A DNA stretch of 36,388 nt, from contig JAJCZE010000007.1 in assembly GCA_029262555.1 (NCBI GenBank), positions 1 through 36,388 of the forward strand. Direction: 5' to 3'. The translations under genes were made by a program, and so were the position numbers. Of this stretch, positions 26,545 through 35,241 are shown piece after piece. The notes under the pieces are model-generated. The model saw only the letters and a program-made list of their open reading frames with translations, had not been told where the DNA came from and ran no database searches. The stretch comes from Candidatus Babelota bacterium (lineage in GTDB: Bacteria; Babelota; Babeliae; Babelales; Vermiphilaceae). Position 1 is the first letter of the stretch. Every line of letters begins with the position of its first letter.

Positions 26545-29500
26545 ATGAAAAAGTCTACGCACATCTATTTTTTATGGTTCTTGTTTATCGTTGGCTCTAC
26601 GAGCTGCTTTATAGCCTCATATCTCTATTTCCCTAAAGCACTTCCGATCGTAGATTTAACAATCTCAATGAATCGCACTCAGGCCATACAGTCCGCACAA
26701 CGCCTCGCACAAACTCATATTGTTGGTCCAAATGATCCTCAGATTGCTACCACATTTGCAACGGATGAAAAAGTAAAAACATTCGTTGAATTAGAACACG
26801 GCGGCAAATCAGCATTAAACGAAATGATACAGAATCATTTTTATCAACCATACGTATGGACTGTTCGACTATTCAAACCACTGGAACAACAAGAGGCCGT
26901 TATGTTCTTCACTCCAGATGGTACACCGTATGGATTTAAAGAACAGCTTTCAGAACAAGATACGCGAACAAACCTTGATGAGAAATCTGCACAAAAACAA
27001 GCAGAACTAACCGCCACGTCTTCACCCTGGAACATACCCCTTTCAGATTATACTCTCGTAGAATCCTCACAAGACACAACCCCCTTTGGACGAATCAATC
27101 ACAGCTTTGTCTATGAACGCTTACATCAATCAATCATATATCGTCTTTTAATCGTGGTAAGCGGCAATCATGTATCAACCGTTTATCGACACGTAAAAAT
27201 TCCAGAATCTTTTTTGCAAAAATATAAAGAAATGCGATCAAAAAATGAAAACATCGCTTACTTGGGCACACTCATGATGATCCTACTTTACGGAATTGGA
27301 GGATGTGCTTTTGGATTATATTATCTTTCACGGAAACGAATGGCTCTGTATAAGCCTGCATTATTTTGGGCATTAGGAATCGCATGCGCAATTGGACTTA
27401 CCGTCATCAATAAATTACCGCTCCATTGGATGAATTATAACACGTCCCACTCACCTACAAATTTCTTGCTTCAAATCGCAATCATGGTGGCGTATAACAT
27501 TGTCTTTTTAACGTTTATGTTTGCACTTGTATTTATCGCTGCAGAAGGTCTTACCCGAATTGCATTCCCTGAAAAAATTCAATTTTGGAAACTATTTAAT
27601 CCATCAGTTGCAGGGAGCTTTACCCTTCTTGGATACACTGTTGGCGGATATCTTATTGTGCCGTTTACCTTAAGCTACCTCTTACTTTTTTATTTTTTCA
27701 CAACCACCTATTTCGGATGGTGGACGCCAACATCCGCGCTTTTTGATCCTGACATTTTGGCAACCTACTTTCCTTGGCTAGAATCAGTCTCGCTTTCATT
27801 GCAAGCTGGTTTTTTTGAAGAATGCTTGTTTCGCGCGATTCCGCTCGCAGGCGCCGCCCTCTTAGGGAATTATTATGGCAAACGAAACTGGTGGATAGCA
27901 GCAGCTTTTATGATACAAGCACTTATTTTTGGTGCAGCACACGCAAACTATCCTTCTTATCCAGCCTATGCCCGCCTCATTGAACTTATACTCATTTCTT
28001 TCTTTTTTGGAGGGGTATACCTACGCTTTGGATTGCTTCCCTCAATAATTTCCCATTTTGGATATGATGTATTACTTTTTGCCCTTCCTATTTTTTCCTC
28101 CACTGCACCCGGAGCTCTTTTTAATAAATGCATGGTAATCGGATTATCGCTAACGCCGCTCTGGATTGTATTGGCAGCTCGAATACGGAACAAAAAATGG
28201 ATAACAATTTCCCCATCGTTTTTCAATAAATCATGGAAAGCTTTACCAATCAAAAAAGCACCCACTATTACGCACACAGAACCATTGCCATTTTCAGCCA
28301 AAAAGTCGACACACTACCTCATACTTACTTTAGGAATATTTGGAGCAGCTTCATGGATTGCAACTACTCGCTTTCAACCAAATTCTCCAACTTTTTCAAT
28401 TAATAGAAATGATACTCTAGAAAGAGCAATTGATTTTTTACAAAAACAATCTCTCAATCCAAACGAATGGACTCCGCTCGCCAATCCTATAACCGATTTT
28501 TCTCAAGTCGAGGCATTAAATAAACAACATCGATTCATATGGCAAGAAGATCCCAGTCTCTATGCCTCTTTTATCGGCTCTTATCTTGCCCCTCCTCACT
28601 GGATAGTACGCTTTGCAAAGTTTAATGGCACACTCGCACAAAAAGCTGAAGAGCATGTAGTCTACCTCAATCCCAATGGATCTCTCTTTCGATATATGCG
28701 CAAAATACCAGAGGAAATGGAACTCACCACCCTCTCTCGCGATAAAGCAATTGAACGTGCTCTTAAAACAATAAACTCTCAATTCTCTCTCTTGCCAGAC
28801 TCACTCGAGCAAGTATCTGTACAAGCAAAAAAGCAACCAAACCGCACTGATTGGATCGTAACATACAAAGATCTTACAAAGCCTTTGCCTCGTACAGGTG
28901 AAAAACATATCACCGTTCAACTAGCAGGAGATCAGATTGCAGATAGCTATCGATCCATACACACTTCAGAACAATGGAGTCGCGCAGAAGATAATCGCCT
29001 CATGCTTGCAGCTATTATTACCAAGCTGTGCCAGCTCCTTATATATTTCTTACTTTTAATTGGATTATTCATCTCCATTAAAAAATTAAGTGCAGCTCAA
29101 ATAACAACCCCGCTGTTATTACTCGCCGCACTTCTTGGAATTTTTATTTTTGAACTTTTTAATGCATATCCTACGAAAGTATTTAATTTTTCAACAAGCC
29201 AACCATTCTATGATCAACTATTTCGTACATTTGGCATTACCTCAATTTTGCTGTTAGTTCGTGCAATACTGCTCGCTATCATTATTAGCTTTGTCAGTGC
29301 GCTCCCCCAGCGCTACTATTTTTCTAGTAAACAATATATTCCGCTTTTTGGCATATGTATTGGCATGTTTTTTGCAGGATTACAATCTCTCCTTACATCA
29401 CTGATACCCGCATCCACTCCAACCTGGGCGAACTACACCCCACTCCGTTTTTTAAGCCCATGGGCAGTAGCCGTTAATAGCCTAATTTTAAATTATCTTA

Positions 29501-29895
29501 CACTCACTGCTGTGACATTATTTGCACTTATCATCCTGCAATCCATTGCCTTCATTTCTCGTAACAAGCTTTATGGCAGTTTTTGCTTCATGTTTTTCGG
29601 CTTTTTAGGGTCCGGCATTTTATATGCTGACAATATCCCGCTCTTTTTTGTAAATGGATGTATAACAGGTGCAGCCTTTTGTTTTTTCTACTACAGCCTT
29701 TTGCGCTACAATTACGCAGCAATCCCCCTTGCTACTGCAGCGTATTTACTCACATGGCAACTACAAGAAGCACTCTTTAATAGTTTTACAGATTCTGCAC
29801 TTATTCATGGAACTGCAAGCAGCGTTATGCTGCTTACAGCATGGATATGGTATAAAGCATTACGAACGTGCTCTATAAAAAAATACAACTGTTAA
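26545..29895 (+). CDS. Large duplicated membrane protein with a CPBP intramembrane protease domain
   Basis: An 1116-residue protein built of two similar halves. Each half has a membrane helix, an extracytoplasmic domain of about 200 residues (about 40-230 and 615-815) and then several membrane helices. The first half contains the CPBP (Rce1/Abi-type) metalloprotease motifs: EECLFR (E425, E426, R430), FGAAH (F462, H466) and HFGYD (H504, D508). The second half has the same general layout but lacks these motifs, so it looks like an inactive copy. The two soluble parts correspond segment by segment (for example T/D..QAIQSAQRLAQ with DTLERAIDFLQ, and VRLFKPL...VMFFTPDGTPY with VRFAKFN...VVYLNPNGSLF). 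AGGA precedes the ATG. Substrate unknown; it ends three bases from rimK on the other strand. Confidence 0.75.
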   Translation: MKKSTHIYFLWFLFIVGSTSCFIASYLYFPKALPIVDLTISMNRTQAIQSAQRLAQTHIVGPNDPQIATTFATDEKVKTFVELEHGGKSALNEMIQNHFYQPYVWTVRLFKPLEQQEAVMFFTPDGTPYGFKEQLSEQDTRTNLDEKSAQKQAELTATSSPWNIPLSDYTLVESSQDTTPFGRINHSFVYERLHQSIIYRLLIVVSGNHVSTVYRHVKIPESFLQKYKEMRSKNENIAYLGTLMMILLYGIGGCAFGLYYLSRKRMALYKPALFWALGIACAIGLTVINKLPLHWMNYNTSHSPTNFLLQIAIMVAYNIVFLTFMFALVFIAAEGLTRIAFPEKIQFWKLFNPSVAGSFTLLGYTVGGYLIVPFTLSYLLLFYFFTTTYFGWWTPTSALFDPDILATYFPWLESVSLSLQAGFFEECLFRAIPLAGAALLGNYYGKRNWWIAAAFMIQALIFGAAHANYPSYPAYARLIELILISFFFGGVYLRFGLLPSIISHFGYDVLLFALPIFSSTAPGALFNKCMVIGLSLTPLWIVLAARIRNKKWITISPSFFNKSWKALPIKKAPTITHTEPLPFSAKKSTHYLILTLGIFGAASWIATTRFQPNSPTFSINRNDTLERAIDFLQKQSLNPNEWTPLANPITDFSQVEALNKQHRFIWQEDPSLYASFIGSYLAPPHWIVRFAKFNGTLAQKAEEHVVYLNPNGSLFRYMRKIPEEMELTTLSRDKAIERALKTINSQFSLLPDSLEQVSVQAKKQPNRTDWIVTYKDLTKPLPRTGEKHITVQLAGDQIADSYRSIHTSEQWSRAEDNRLMLAAIITKLCQLLIYFLLLIGLFISIKKLSAAQITTPLLLLAALLGIFIFELFNAYPTKVFNFSTSQPFYDQLFRTFGITSILLLVRAILLAIIISFVSALPQRYYFSSKQYIPLFGICIGMFFAGLQSLLTSLIPASTPTWANYTPLRFLSPWAVAVNSLILNYLTLTAVTLFALIILQSIAFISRNKLYGSFCFMFFGFLGSGILYADNIPLFFVNGCITGAAFCFFYYSLLRYNYAAIPLATAAYLLTWQLQEALFNSFTDSALIHGTASSVMLLTAWIWYKALRTCSIKKYNC

Positions 29896-31000: not shown

Positions 31001-32005
31001 ATGCCTGTTGAACGCTTATCCAATAAAAAAATTAGCGCTCTTTTTCAAGCAATTACATTTTCAATAGCGTTTATATGCTTAGCGCTTTTCTACTCTGCTA
31101 GATATCACATGTTTATTACACATGATCCACCTCTTGCTCTCTCTGCTAATCTGCAAAGTGAAAAACATGTAATTACAGGATTACACATAGCTCACTTTAG
31201 TGAATTCGATATTGCAAAAAATAAATTCGTAATGGATGGAACCATTTGGTTTCTTTTTAATCCTACGGAAGTATCACTTGATACCATCAAAAAATTCAAC
31301 CTATTTAATGGCAGTATTTTGCATATTTCTGATGCAGCAGTTATCGATCATAAAGATTCAAAAATCGCTCAATTTCGTATACGCATTGACTTCCACACTC
31401 CATTAAACTATCGTCTCTTTCCTTTGGATGATCATCGGATTAACCTTATTATTTATAATCGATTTTTATCTGATGACGTAGTACTACAATCAAATAAAAA
31501 CGACATTACTTTTTCAGAATCAATGTTTTTGCCGGGATGGAAAATTGTGCGCCACAATATACGCACCGGCATTAAGAAATTAATTTTAGAGCGGAACAAC
31601 GAAAAATATTCTGATTTACAACAAGAAGCAATCATCTCATTTGATTGTGAACGAACCGATCCAAGCATTATGATTAATATCTTACTTACTCTTCTTTTAA
31701 TGCTTTTTCTATCAATGCTTACCTTCTCTTCAGACGAAGACAGCGTGCTTATCGTAACAGTAGGGATCGTAGCATTAATTGGATATCGAAGCGTGATGCA
31801 AACAATGGCTCCTCCTCAAGTAAGCTACTTCATCTATTCTGATTACATGTACCTTTTTGCATTAGTAAGCGTCATCATCACGTTATTTGCTGGAATTGTA
31901 ACCAGGGATAAAACAAGTAATCTTTTCATTAAAAAATGTTACATCGCAGGGATATACAGTTTTTTTGTCGCTGCATGCATTATTAGTTCTCTTATTCTTT
32001 CTTAA
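31001..32005 (+). CDS. Putative pentameric ligand-gated ion channel-like membrane protein
   Basis: A 334-residue protein with the architecture of bacterial pentameric ligand-gated channels (GLIC/ELIC type). An N-terminal hydrophobic signal or anchor (about 11-32) leads to an extracellular beta-rich domain (about 45-220) with a GLHIAHFSEFDIAKNKFVMDGTIWF-like first strand pair and the RLFPLDDHRINLIIYN motif (F140, P141, D143), where channels have R.FPFD.... Four helices follow: M1 about 223-241, M2 about 248-268, M3 about 276-300, M4 about 312-333. The M2-M3 stretch (IVALIGYRSVMQTMAPPQVS, then YFIYSDYMYLFALV) matches the family's '..LP.vsY.t..D' pattern well. As in other bacterial members there is no Cys-loop. 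DUF4436-type proteins are an alternative. It precedes the secreted giant by 15 bases. Confidence 0.65.
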   Translation: MPVERLSNKKISALFQAITFSIAFICLALFYSARYHMFITHDPPLALSANLQSEKHVITGLHIAHFSEFDIAKNKFVMDGTIWFLFNPTEVSLDTIKKFNLFNGSILHISDAAVIDHKDSKIAQFRIRIDFHTPLNYRLFPLDDHRINLIIYNRFLSDDVVLQSNKNDITFSESMFLPGWKIVRHNIRTGIKKLILERNNEKYSDLQQEAIISFDCERTDPSIMINILLTLLLMLFLSMLTFSSDEDSVLIVTVGIVALIGYRSVMQTMAPPQVSYFIYSDYMYLFALVSVIITLFAGIVTRDKTSNLFIKKCYIAGIYSFFVAACIISSLILS

Positions 32006-32020
32006 AAAGGAGTCTATCGT

Positions 32021-35000
32021 ATGAAATCTAAATCATACATTTTATCAATACTATTACTTTTCACTTTCCACTCGCCTACATTTAGCGCACAGCTTTCATC
32101 TGCCTTAAAAAGGCAACAAGATGCAGCGCAAGCCTCAATAAAACAAGCAACCGCAGCAGTAAAAACGGCCATTCCCGGAAAAACTACTGCACCAACCAAA
32201 GCACCCGCAACCACAACGACCAAAACTACTGCACCAACCAAAGCACCCACAAAACCATCTGCAACAGCTCCATCGACAGGAAAACAATCACCCGCGCCAA
32301 CCGATAAAGCCGTTACATCAGTTACATCTCAAATCAAAGATGGAAAGCTTGCCACTTCAGCCCTCGGACCTCTCGCAGATATTCTCAATAAAGTTGGAAC
32401 TGTTTTAAAAACTGAGATTGTGGATATTTCTAATGTTGGGCAATATCCACTTCCAATTGAATTTAATCCATATAAAGCAACATCATTTAGCGGAAAAATA
32501 ACTTTTTTAAATCAGCAAGTAACCTGTATTGTCATTCTGGGGCAACTCAAAGGATCAACTGGAAAAACAAAACTTGGCTTTAGTCTCGATCTTGCTTTAG
32601 ACAAAAATTATAAAGTAAAAGACTTAAACTTCCTTTCTGCATTGGGCGTTAAAGGATCGGATCTTGGAAAATTTGGCACAATAGACTTACCGAAACCGCA
32701 CATTATATTTTCAACCTTCGAATCATACACCAATCCAGAAAGTAAAACCCTCATAAAAGCAGGCGTGACCGTTTCAACAAAAACTAAAATCGCATCGATG
32801 ATGAAGCTCATAAAAACAGAAGCTAATAAGTTAACTGGAGGACAAGCGAGTAAGCTTCCATTCCTTGCAAAAGTGAATGATAATGCAGAAGTCGCATTCA
32901 ATATAGCAGTCGGATTTACCGGAATAACGCTCGATAGCTTTGCTGCAAACGTCTCTCTACCTATGGAGCTCGGAGTAGATCTGGCTAAATTACGCGCGCA
33001 AGAAAAAAGCTTTAATCCTGGAATTAAAGCTCCATTTGACGGACTCAACAAGCCAATTAAAGAAGTTACCGGAATTATAAATAAACCACCACTCAATGAT
33101 TTAAAAGATATTAGTGTCGGTAACTTTATTGCATCGTTCGGCGTAGAAGCGAATAGTATTAAAGTTTCATTTGGGGCAGAGCTGAATGTAACTACTAATT
33201 TTGGCACTCGCTATGGAATGCTTGGCGTAGTTGCCCTTACGCCAGAAGAAATGGCAATTGAACTGCGAAAATCTCCCTCTATCCAATCAATGCCATTAGG
33301 GAATGGTGTATCCATTGAAAACATTGCCCTCGCAACATTTACCAATTTCAAAGTACTTGCCACTTCTGGTGTACCATTCTCAGGACTCGGACTGCTTGGC
33401 GAAATCAAATTCCCATTTGAAGGTGATAGCGTTGTCATTGGACTTGCAGGACAAGTAAAAGCAACGGGTGACTTTATGATGATGGGATCTGTAGCAAATC
33501 TAGATGCCAGAAAATTAGCAGCGCTAAATGCCAGCATGATTGAAAACGTTGCTCGCTTGGTTAAATTTGATACGAGCAAGCTTACTGAAGCAATGAAGCA
33601 ACTACCGCCAATGAAGATCAATGAAGCATTCTTCTATGTTGCAACCAAACAGGTTTCTCTGGGCGGTCGAATTTTCCCAATGGGACTTGGTGCAACCTTA
33701 GATGTAATGATAGATAAACAAAAAGCAAAACTTTCAGTTGCTGGAAATCAAAAAGAGCTCGCATTCATGGGATATTTATCTGAAATAAAAACCCCAATCA
33801 TTGTAATCAGCGGTATGGGACCAGACAAAAAATATGGATCAGCTGATGATGGGCCAATCATTGATTTTGTTATTTCTGCCGACAAACCATTAAAAACAAA
33901 CTTTGATATGAGTGGAAGCGTTGAGCTTCCTCCAGTGCAAATAAAGGGGAGCGGCGACGTATCAATGGGAATCGGAAGGATTGCAGCAAACTTTAGCTCA
34001 AATGTAGCCAATCTCTTTAAAGCTGATTTTGATTTGCAATTTAATGTACAAAAAATTTCAGATGCGCGAATAGGATTTGAGCTAAATGCAAAAGAGCGTA
34101 AAGGTTTCCTTGGACTTGCATTTAAAGAACTTGAAAAAGCAATTGTAAAAGCTCAAAAAGGTGCTGCAAAAGTAATGCTTGAACCTCTCCGCCTTCTTGC
34201 AAAAGAAATCGGAAAAGGAGTGAATAATTTGGATATTGGCCTTCCAAAGAAAATAGCCGCAAGCCTTGTTGCTAAAACGTGGTCTGGATCAATGGAAATT
34301 GATGGAGGAAGTTTTAAACTCCCTGTTATTGGAGAAATAAAACTTGGTATCCCTAAAATTGAATTTTCATTAAAAGATCCAATGAAAGCAATTGGAAAAA
34401 TTGCCGAAAAATGGGCAAAACAAATTGTCGAAGACATGAAAAAACTCGGCAAAGAAGTAGAAAAATTTGCTAAAGAAGTAGGCAAAGGGGTCGAAACCGC
34501 TGCAAAAGAAACCGGAAAATTTGTTACCGAAACGGGCAAAACAATTGGAAAAGGAACAGAAACTGCAGTAAAAGAAACCGGTAAAGCTGTTACTAAGGCT
34601 GGGCAAACCGTTGCTAAAGGGACACAAACAGCGGTTAAAGAAACAGGTAAAACTGTTACTAAGGCTAGTCAAACCGTTGCTAAAGGGACACAAACAGCGG
34701 TTAAAGAAACAGGTAAAGTTGCCACTCAAGCCGGAAAGAGCATTGAAAAGGGTGCTAAATCTATTGGAAAGGCGATCGGTAGCTTATTTGAACCCAAAAA
34801 GAAAAAACGCCCTACAAGGGCACCGCAAACGGCCGACAGCAGAAGGAAAAGCCTTATCAACCTTCTTCCTGGCCTCATGCACTCACTCGAAAGCCAAGTA
34901 AAAAATGCGCAAACCAAGAATGACAAGCCAAAATGGCAACTTCAAAGAAATAATACTCCCCAATTTACAACGTTTCAATTACGAAAAATGCTGAGAGATT

Positions 35001-35170
35001 ACAGAGAAGTTAAAAAAACAATCGACACCTACGAACTCATTCCATACATTCCAAGATTGAAAGCGGTACGTGAAGGTATTAATAAGCTCATCAAAGATAA
35101 TCCTGAATCAACAAGCAACCTTGGAGCTGTACATGGTCTTGGCAGAGACAATCAACTTCCTCGAATATAA
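32021..35170 (+). CDS. 1049-residue secreted protein with amphipathic 11-residue repeats
   Basis: Not recognised as a known family. A signal peptide (about 1-23, FSA/QLS) is followed by a short Lys/Ala helix, a Thr/Pro/Lys/Ala-rich linker (about 52-94) and a long probably beta-rich part (about 115-740) with alternating hydrophobic strands and few charged patches. A region of Lys-rich helices follows (about 690-800), then ten in-register 11-residue repeats (807-916) of the type KETGKxVTKAx, a polybasic stretch (EPKKKKRPTR, about 921-930) and a charged helical C-terminus. The repeats resemble LEA/synuclein-type lipid-binding helices, so membrane or lipid contact is a reasonable inference. AAGGAG precedes the ATG by eight bases; it is probably co-transcribed with the channel-like gene. 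The terminator is at 35190-35221. Confidence 0.75.
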   Translation: MKSKSYILSILLLFTFHSPTFSAQLSSALKRQQDAAQASIKQATAAVKTAIPGKTTAPTKAPATTTTKTTAPTKAPTKPSATAPSTGKQSPAPTDKAVTSVTSQIKDGKLATSALGPLADILNKVGTVLKTEIVDISNVGQYPLPIEFNPYKATSFSGKITFLNQQVTCIVILGQLKGSTGKTKLGFSLDLALDKNYKVKDLNFLSALGVKGSDLGKFGTIDLPKPHIIFSTFESYTNPESKTLIKAGVTVSTKTKIASMMKLIKTEANKLTGGQASKLPFLAKVNDNAEVAFNIAVGFTGITLDSFAANVSLPMELGVDLAKLRAQEKSFNPGIKAPFDGLNKPIKEVTGIINKPPLNDLKDISVGNFIASFGVEANSIKVSFGAELNVTTNFGTRYGMLGVVALTPEEMAIELRKSPSIQSMPLGNGVSIENIALATFTNFKVLATSGVPFSGLGLLGEIKFPFEGDSVVIGLAGQVKATGDFMMMGSVANLDARKLAALNASMIENVARLVKFDTSKLTEAMKQLPPMKINEAFFYVATKQVSLGGRIFPMGLGATLDVMIDKQKAKLSVAGNQKELAFMGYLSEIKTPIIVISGMGPDKKYGSADDGPIIDFVISADKPLKTNFDMSGSVELPPVQIKGSGDVSMGIGRIAANFSSNVANLFKADFDLQFNVQKISDARIGFELNAKERKGFLGLAFKELEKAIVKAQKGAAKVMLEPLRLLAKEIGKGVNNLDIGLPKKIAASLVAKTWSGSMEIDGGSFKLPVIGEIKLGIPKIEFSLKDPMKAIGKIAEKWAKQIVEDMKKLGKEVEKFAKEVGKGVETAAKETGKFVTETGKTIGKGTETAVKETGKAVTKAGQTVAKGTQTAVKETGKTVTKASQTVAKGTQTAVKETGKVATQAGKSIEKGAKSIGKAIGSLFEPKKKKRPTRAPQTADSRRKSLINLLPGLMHSLESQVKNAQTKNDKPKWQLQRNNTPQFTTFQLRKMLRDYREVKKTIDTYELIPYIPRLKAVREGINKLIKDNPESTSNLGAVHGLGRDNQLPRI
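32180..32248 (+). repeat. 27-base direct repeat in the Thr/Pro-rich linker
   Basis: The same 27 bases, starting AAAACTACTGCACC, occur at 32180-32206 and again at 32222-32248, 42 bases apart, and encode KTTAPTKAP twice. The bases between them encode more Thr. Such perfect DNA repeats change copy number easily. Confidence 0.9.
34439..34768 (+). repeat. Ten tandem 11-codon repeats, with a near-perfect 66-base DNA unit inside
   Basis: Codons from 34439 to 34768 fall into ten consecutive 11-residue units without a break: KKLGKEVEKFA, KEVGKGVETAA, KETGKFVTETG, KTIGKGTETAV, KETGKAVTKAG, QTVAKGTQTAV, KETGKTVTKAS, QTVAKGTQTAV, KETGKVATQAG, KSIEKGAKSIG. Units five-six and seven-eight are almost the same at DNA level (66-base period, starting at 34589 and 34655 in the GTTACTAAGG phase), a recent duplication. 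Each unit places Lys, Glu and small or aliphatic residues in a pattern suited to an amphipathic 11/3 helix. Confidence 0.9.
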
Positions 35171-35189
35171 ACAGATATAAATAGACAAT

Positions 35190-35221
35190 AAAAAAGCCTC
35201 GAAATTAATCGAGGCTTTTTT
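35190..35221. terminator. Bidirectional terminator between the converging genes
   Basis: A run of six A (35190-35195), the stem GCCTCG/CGAGGC (35196-35201 and 35210-35215) with an eight-base loop, and then six T. It works on either strand: for the 1049-residue protein gene (plus) and for the small secreted protein gene (minus), which end 20 bases away on each side. Confidence 0.85.
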
Positions 35222-35241
35222 ATTTAATCTACAAGAAATGC

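Follow-up and report, generated by a model that had tools for sequence, protein, structure and literature searches.

A divergent pentameric ligand-gated ion channel subunit and its changed gene partner in a Dependentiae genome

The stretch of DNA analyzed here (the window, 36,388 nt) is contig 7 of the 1.11-Mb draft genome of a Candidatus Babelota bacterium. An intact, ATG-started open reading frame on the plus strand (31001..32005) encodes a 334-aa subunit of the pentameric ligand-gated ion channel (pLGIC) family. Its upstream neighbor, on the opposite strand, encodes a RimK-type ligase. Downstream, the gene for a secreted-looking protein of 1049 aa (32021..35170, plus strand) starts 15 nt past the stop codon of the channel gene, behind AAGGAG. 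The two genes probably form one operon, because they lie on the same strand with a gap of only 15 nt. A 16-bp stem with A/T-rich flanks (35187..35224), listed on the minus strand by a consensus scan, is a possible terminator of the pair, to the weak extent that such a scan can indicate one. The window also encodes a multi-pass protein of 1116 aa (26545-29895) that matched a CPBP-type intramembrane protease weakly and nothing in a Pfam scan; a member of the same genus, G001, has a 1138-aa gene at the corresponding place (L067:5880-9296). G001 also has a 334-aa homolog of the channel, 64% identical over aligned codons. Comparison of the two channel genes gave a dN of 0.25 and a dS of 2.4 (NG86; dS saturated), for a dN/dS of about 0.1, and the channel gene is under purifying selection, with the reservation that dS is saturated.

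A hydropathy scan of the channel protein showed exactly five strong segments, one N-terminal (scan windows starting at 10-15) and four C-terminal. The AF2 model, made with an alignment of 44 relatives gathered from 51 related genomes (alignment A1), had a mean pLDDT of 92.6 and a pTM of 0.86. It contained a helix at residues 13-35 (31037..31105), a beta-rich domain at residues 55-218 (31163..31654) and four further helices, M1 to M4, at residues 222-243 (31664..31729), 248-268 (31742..31804), 279-303 (31835..31909) and 308-333 (31922..31999), all on the plus strand. An initial sequence-only reading had described an N-terminal anchor, a beta-rich domain and four C-terminal helices, and the scan and the model between them contain every one of these elements. 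The beta-rich domain is conserved in A1 and is predicted to be a periplasmic, ligand-binding-type beta-sandwich. The N-terminal helix is a probable retained anchor ("M0"). No AxA cleavage motif was obvious in it by eye, and a Gln at the start of the hydrophobic segment is widely conserved among relatives, so the helix may stay in place as a fifth membrane helix; cleavage is also possible.

Two motifs had been singled out in that first reading, RLFPLDDH in the beta-rich domain and MAPPQVSYFIYSD as the M2-M3 signature, and both were present as described, at residues 138-145 and 269-281, respectively. The former contains the Pro-loop, F140-P141-L142-D143 (31418..31429, plus strand), which fits the F/YPxD signature, and the latter contains the M2-M3 loop proline, Pro272 (31814..31816, plus strand), equivalent to P247 of GLIC. 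P141 and P272 were invariant in all 44 aligned relatives. Two more signature residues could be aligned to GLIC: Trp180 in beta9 (31538..31540, plus strand; GLIC W160), also invariant in A1, and the pre-M1 Arg218 (31652..31654, plus strand; GLIC R192), at whose position some relatives carry Lys, Asn or another residue. In total, six of the seven superfamily signature residues were present (F/Y, P and D of FPxD, W180, R218 and P272). The seventh, the kink proline of M1, was found in 42 of the 44 aligned sequences and was missing only in the window protein and its congener; Thr230 takes this position in the window protein. Across the superfamily, the tip proline of the beta6-beta7 loop is conserved in 100%, the beta9 Trp in 71%, the pre-M1 Arg in 94%, the M1 proline in 77% and the M2-M3 loop proline in 88% of sequences (PMC4795631 Table 1). 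Since the M1 proline is conserved in only 77%, Thr230 does not exclude membership. No cysteine was found near residues 125-150, where the Cys pair that flanks the Pro-loop in the animal Cys-loop branch would be expected.

The predicted pore-lining helix, M2, was placed in register by an ungapped alignment between the family profile and GLIC and a column table. In this inferred register, D-1' and E-2' precede M2, R263 is at 15' and Q267 at 19'. Positions 2', 6' and 9' of the window protein are Leu, Val and Val and 16' is Ser; in the relatives, small or polar residues predominate at the first three positions and Phe occupies 16'. The M2-M3 loop of the window protein and of the G001 protein has one extra residue. 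By analogy with GLIC, the acidic residues D245, E246 and D247 before M2 would favor cations, for which they are weak evidence.

Sequence and structure searches agreed on the family. A single-sequence phmmer search of the PDB with the window protein returned only pLGICs (GLIC chimeras with E-values of 2.1e-4 and 4.4e-4 and glycine receptor beta with 5.8e-4), with alignments in register from the Pro-loop to M3. The A1 profile matched GLIC with an E-value of 2.6e-18 over the Pro-loop and M1-M4, and all of the 60 matches listed, of 229, were to GLIC. When the AF2 model was compared with the PDB using Foldseek, the best 50 matches were all pLGICs of the GLIC or GABA-A type, with E-values down to 7.6e-18. 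TM scores were mostly 0.58-0.66, but the rmsd against GLIC was high, about 8-11 Å. The two domains, or the N-terminal helix, may accordingly be positioned differently than in GLIC. Because profile, fold and signature residues agree, it is well supported that the open reading frame encodes a divergent subunit of the pLGICs ("Pro-loop receptors"), a distant but convincing relative of the animal neurotransmitter-receptor channels. This bears out the assignment to the GLIC/ELIC family made in the first reading, which had also judged the protein to be of normal length for the family; GLIC is of similar length.

The alternative that this is an unrelated membrane protein family, such as DUF4436, whose motifs resemble those of a channel by chance, could draw on the finding that no model in Pfam or NCBIfam reached its cut-off with the window protein. 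The profile and fold searches, however, returned pLGICs with very small E-values, and the alignments keep the signature residues in their expected order; resemblance by chance is also contradicted by the retention of the same motifs in 44 aligned relatives and in the 334-aa homolog of the congener. DUF4436 was absent from the Pfam hmmscan of the protein up to E=10. At the level of these tools an unrelated family is ruled out, and we regard it as next to impossible. A search with the Neur_chan and DUF4436 profiles had been suggested as a check, with a best match to an unrelated family or a fold without channel topology as grounds for giving up the channel. Profile and monomer fold both gave pLGICs and DUF4436 did not match, which favors the channel, but the Neur_chan models did not score the window protein. 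That part of the check would miss the protein in any case, because the ligand-binding model PF02931 had no matches among the 44 relatives and the membrane model PF02932 had only one, below threshold.

The channel family is common and phylum-wide. A search with A1 found a match in 57 of 90 searched genomes of the phylum, with up to about five per genome and three to five in several; some whole families within the order contained none. The expectation in the first reading that such channels are rare in small genomes was therefore wrong for this phylum, while its proposal of a host-associated bacterium fits the Dependentiae lifestyle (PMC6561590), the known members living inside protists as parasites or symbionts (PMC6561590, PMC12172432). 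Scanning named genomes with a tighter alignment, A2, identified 12 named loci, and the close relatives there belonged to Candidatus Dependentiae, candidate division TM6 and Babeliaceae, which assigns the window's genome to the phylum Dependentiae; the same scan with the single window protein found nothing. Two contigs labelled Leeuwenhoekiella sp. HyVt-349, a Bacteroidota MAG (L054 and L056), carry pLGIC genes 65-66% identical to a Dependentiae copy, and their label or binning is probably wrong. Pattern scans of viral contigs with A2 and with the window protein revealed no relative. The best viral structure match was BFVD A0A5J6VL22 (E=3.5e-13), from a Megaviridae environmental sample and annotated as Neur_chan_LBD, and giant viruses of protists may, on the strength of that predicted structure, carry such channels too. 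No paper naming a pLGIC in Dependentiae or TM6 was found in the part of the freely accessible literature searched. The kind of protein, a pLGIC, is known; its family is divergent and set apart by its gene context, and annotations of this sort may already exist in sequence databases.

The window's genome contains two further core members of the family, on contigs 18 and 11, both full-length and with the M1 proline. In G001 the window-type channel is the only core member. Two proteins of the Cache type, of 707 and 736 aa, are also encoded in the window's genome, on contig 1 (L084:6412-10622) and contig 11 (L085:6776-8986), and their C-termini weakly resemble pLGICs. The first is separated by 11 nt from another gene (691 aa), whose Cache match stays below threshold. 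A Cache plus pLGIC architecture is already described for bacterial pLGICs (PMC549065). Longer proteins of the pLGIC family were encoded at L065:3338-7891 (1517 aa), L038:2040-3719 (559 aa), L038:9385-11058 (557 aa) and L039:2248-4242 (664 aa), and their extra regions had no informative Pfam match. In several genomes a protein of ~1200 aa with an MscS-type channel domain adjoins the pLGIC cluster (L068:8496-12098, L057, L058, L063, L070, L074 and L079); the domain was checked with Pfam in L068, and the other loci were grouped by BLAST clustering.

Most members of the family share a gene neighbor. Clustering of the genes around channel loci showed that 41 of the 52 distinct channel ORFs had a member of one protein cluster as immediate neighbor on the same strand, downstream of the channel in 35 of the 41, with gaps of -52 to +34 nt. 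The sampled partners were secreted and contained one to four Peripla_BP_6 (PBP-I) domains and/or a calcineurin-like phosphoesterase domain. Among 44 genomes, 53 of the 65 above-threshold Peripla_BP_6 hits lay within 20 kb of a core channel gene on the same strand, and 31 of 40 channel matches had a Peripla_BP_6 domain within 4 kb. The PPP-phosphatase motifs GDxHG, GDxxDRG and GNHE were degenerate in most partner copies and nearer the consensus in a few, so this domain is probably non-catalytic in most partners. Operons of a core pLGIC with such a PBP-I/degenerate PPP-phosphatase protein were seen at two loci in the window's genome (L053:620-5061 and L052:4270-7621) and at about 40 more, and the arrangement is conserved across Dependentiae. 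In contrast to the degenerate operon copies, the PPP motifs are intact (GDLHG, GDYVDRG and GNHE) in a 626-aa protein whose gene (L072:9971-11851) runs on the other strand from a pLGIC operon. Pairing of bacterial pLGICs with periplasmic binding proteins, by fusion or in operons, is described in the cited part of PMC549065, and the phosphatase part is an addition which that part does not mention.

In the window and in G001, the usual PBP-I/phosphatase neighbor is replaced by an unrelated secreted-looking protein of 1049 and 928 aa, respectively, 64-65% identical to each other and encoded at the same place. The 1049-aa protein has a Thr/Pro-rich N-terminal part, beta-rich repeats and a coiled C-terminal part. 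It had no Pfam match over the cut-off and no match in the PDB, and its AF2 model was of low confidence (pLDDT 56), with long extended beta-hairpins and a fold that is tentative. Weak relatives occur elsewhere in the phylum, mostly on contigs or at positions away from core channel genes. No Peripla_BP_6 domain was detectable in the G001 genome. The window and G001 channels sit together on a long stem branch of 1.2 substitutions per site. The swapped partner, the long stem, the lost M1 proline and the altered M2 residues indicate that the window channel is probably a re-purposed paralog under purifying selection. Three tandem pLGIC paralogs at L036:803-3975, which have no PBP partner and sit on another long stem branch, are a second case in which a missing partner accompanies fast divergence.

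We consider it likely that, taken as a whole, the locus encodes a pLGIC-type channel, a re-purposed paralog with a swapped secreted partner, which converts the sensing of a chemical cue into an ion flux. What the computations show, and what this reading builds on, are the homology and the fold, the signature residues, the purifying selection and the conservation of the gene context. From what is known of the family, five subunits would surround an M2-lined pore in the inner membrane, with the beta-sandwiches facing the periplasm, and a ligand at the subunit interfaces would move the Pro-loop and the M2-M3 loop and so open the pore. For most members, gene context suggests that the co-operonic secreted PBP-I/pseudo-phosphatase protein may capture the ligand and present it, or touch the channel; in the window's genus a different, large secreted protein would occupy the partner slot. 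The likeliest role would be to sense a chemical cue outside the inner membrane and respond with ion flux or depolarization, and the cue could be a metabolite of the host or a change that accompanies entry into or exit from it. The sensing is most likely tied to the life cycle; that it serves to notice host entry, or to sense the host at all, is speculation. A role in chemotaxis, proposed for bacterial pLGICs (PMC549065), is unlikely here, because CheW was not found in the window's genome and was absent from 28 of the 29 genomes searched. Within this picture, the channels may be split receptors, gated by contact with the separate co-operonic PBP-I/dead PPP-phosphatase protein, and the window's genus may have exchanged that partner for an unrelated secreted beta-rich protein and with it acquired a different gating protein or cue; we offer this only tentatively, as a possibility that is rather doubtful in this specific form. 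We know of no pLGIC with a protein partner of the PBP-I/dead-phosphatase kind.

Conduction by the window protein is not assured, because the M1 proline is missing, 2', 6' and 9' are hydrophobic and F16' has become Ser. The subunit might instead be a non-conducting, regulatory or scaffold member of the pLGIC fold, perhaps co-assembling with the two core paralogs, or a membrane receptor for the 1049-aa partner. The long stem of the window/G001 pair, the lost M1 proline, the hydrophobic lower pore in the inferred register, the extra residue in the M2-M3 loop, the changed partner and the presence in the same genome of two full-length paralogs that retain the M1 proline would all be in keeping with this. 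However, about a quarter of known pLGICs also lack that proline (77% conserved, PMC4795631 Table 1), the protein retains the four helices and every other signature residue, and in G001 no second core member accompanies the channel, which means that co-assembly with further core subunits is not a general rule. Loss of conduction is, on balance, unlikely. Fast stem divergence and the absence of the usual partner could also mark a gene copy decaying after the loss of its PBP partner, but the 334-aa ORF is intact in two species, dN/dS is about 0.1, and the new partner gene is itself conserved at the same place (about 65%), which makes decay very improbable.

Dependentiae are reduced intracellular bacteria that have lost most of their metabolism, and prokaryotic pLGICs have been described as sporadic, usually one per genome, with natural roles that are largely unknown. 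A phylum of this kind that keeps pLGICs widely despite its lost metabolism, often in several copies, points to an important role for them in the intracellular lifestyle. The conserved PBP-I/pseudo-phosphatase neighbor offers a way to test for the natural ligand, and with the window member comes a comparison in which the partner has been swapped naturally. The Dependentiae family is also evidence that some pLGICs escape standard profile libraries.

One of the nearest described counterparts is GLIC, the proton-gated pLGIC of Gloeobacter violaceus (Glr4197), which shares with the window protein the beta-sandwich followed by M1-M4, the FPxD Pro-loop, the beta9 Trp, the pre-M1 Arg and the M2-M3 proline. 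Its M2 aligns with that of the Dependentiae family without gaps, and its Glu at 19' is common to about half of the relatives. The two proteins are only about 17-18% identical, however, and the window protein differs in its N-terminal hydrophobic helix, which may stay in the membrane, and in the missing M1 proline. Position 15' is Asn in GLIC and Arg in 34 of the 44 aligned family sequences, and the Dependentiae family, unlike GLIC, escapes recognition by Pfam. Channels with a Cache domain have a counterpart in the two Cache-type proteins of the window's genome, whereas the window protein itself has no such domain. The same pairing of a channel with a periplasmic ligand-binding protein is seen in bacterial pLGICs that are fused to PBP-I or share an operon with PBP-II or Cache proteins (Tasneem et al. 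2004, PMC549065); in Dependentiae a separate secreted protein carries the PBP-I domains, in many cases together with a PPP-phosphatase domain whose motifs are mostly degenerate. In DeCLIC, likewise a prokaryotic pLGIC, an extra N-terminal domain acts as the accessory periplasmic module that modulates the channel (PMC9897478, PMC12664993), but the accessory part is fused to the channel in DeCLIC and is mostly a separate neighbor protein in Dependentiae.
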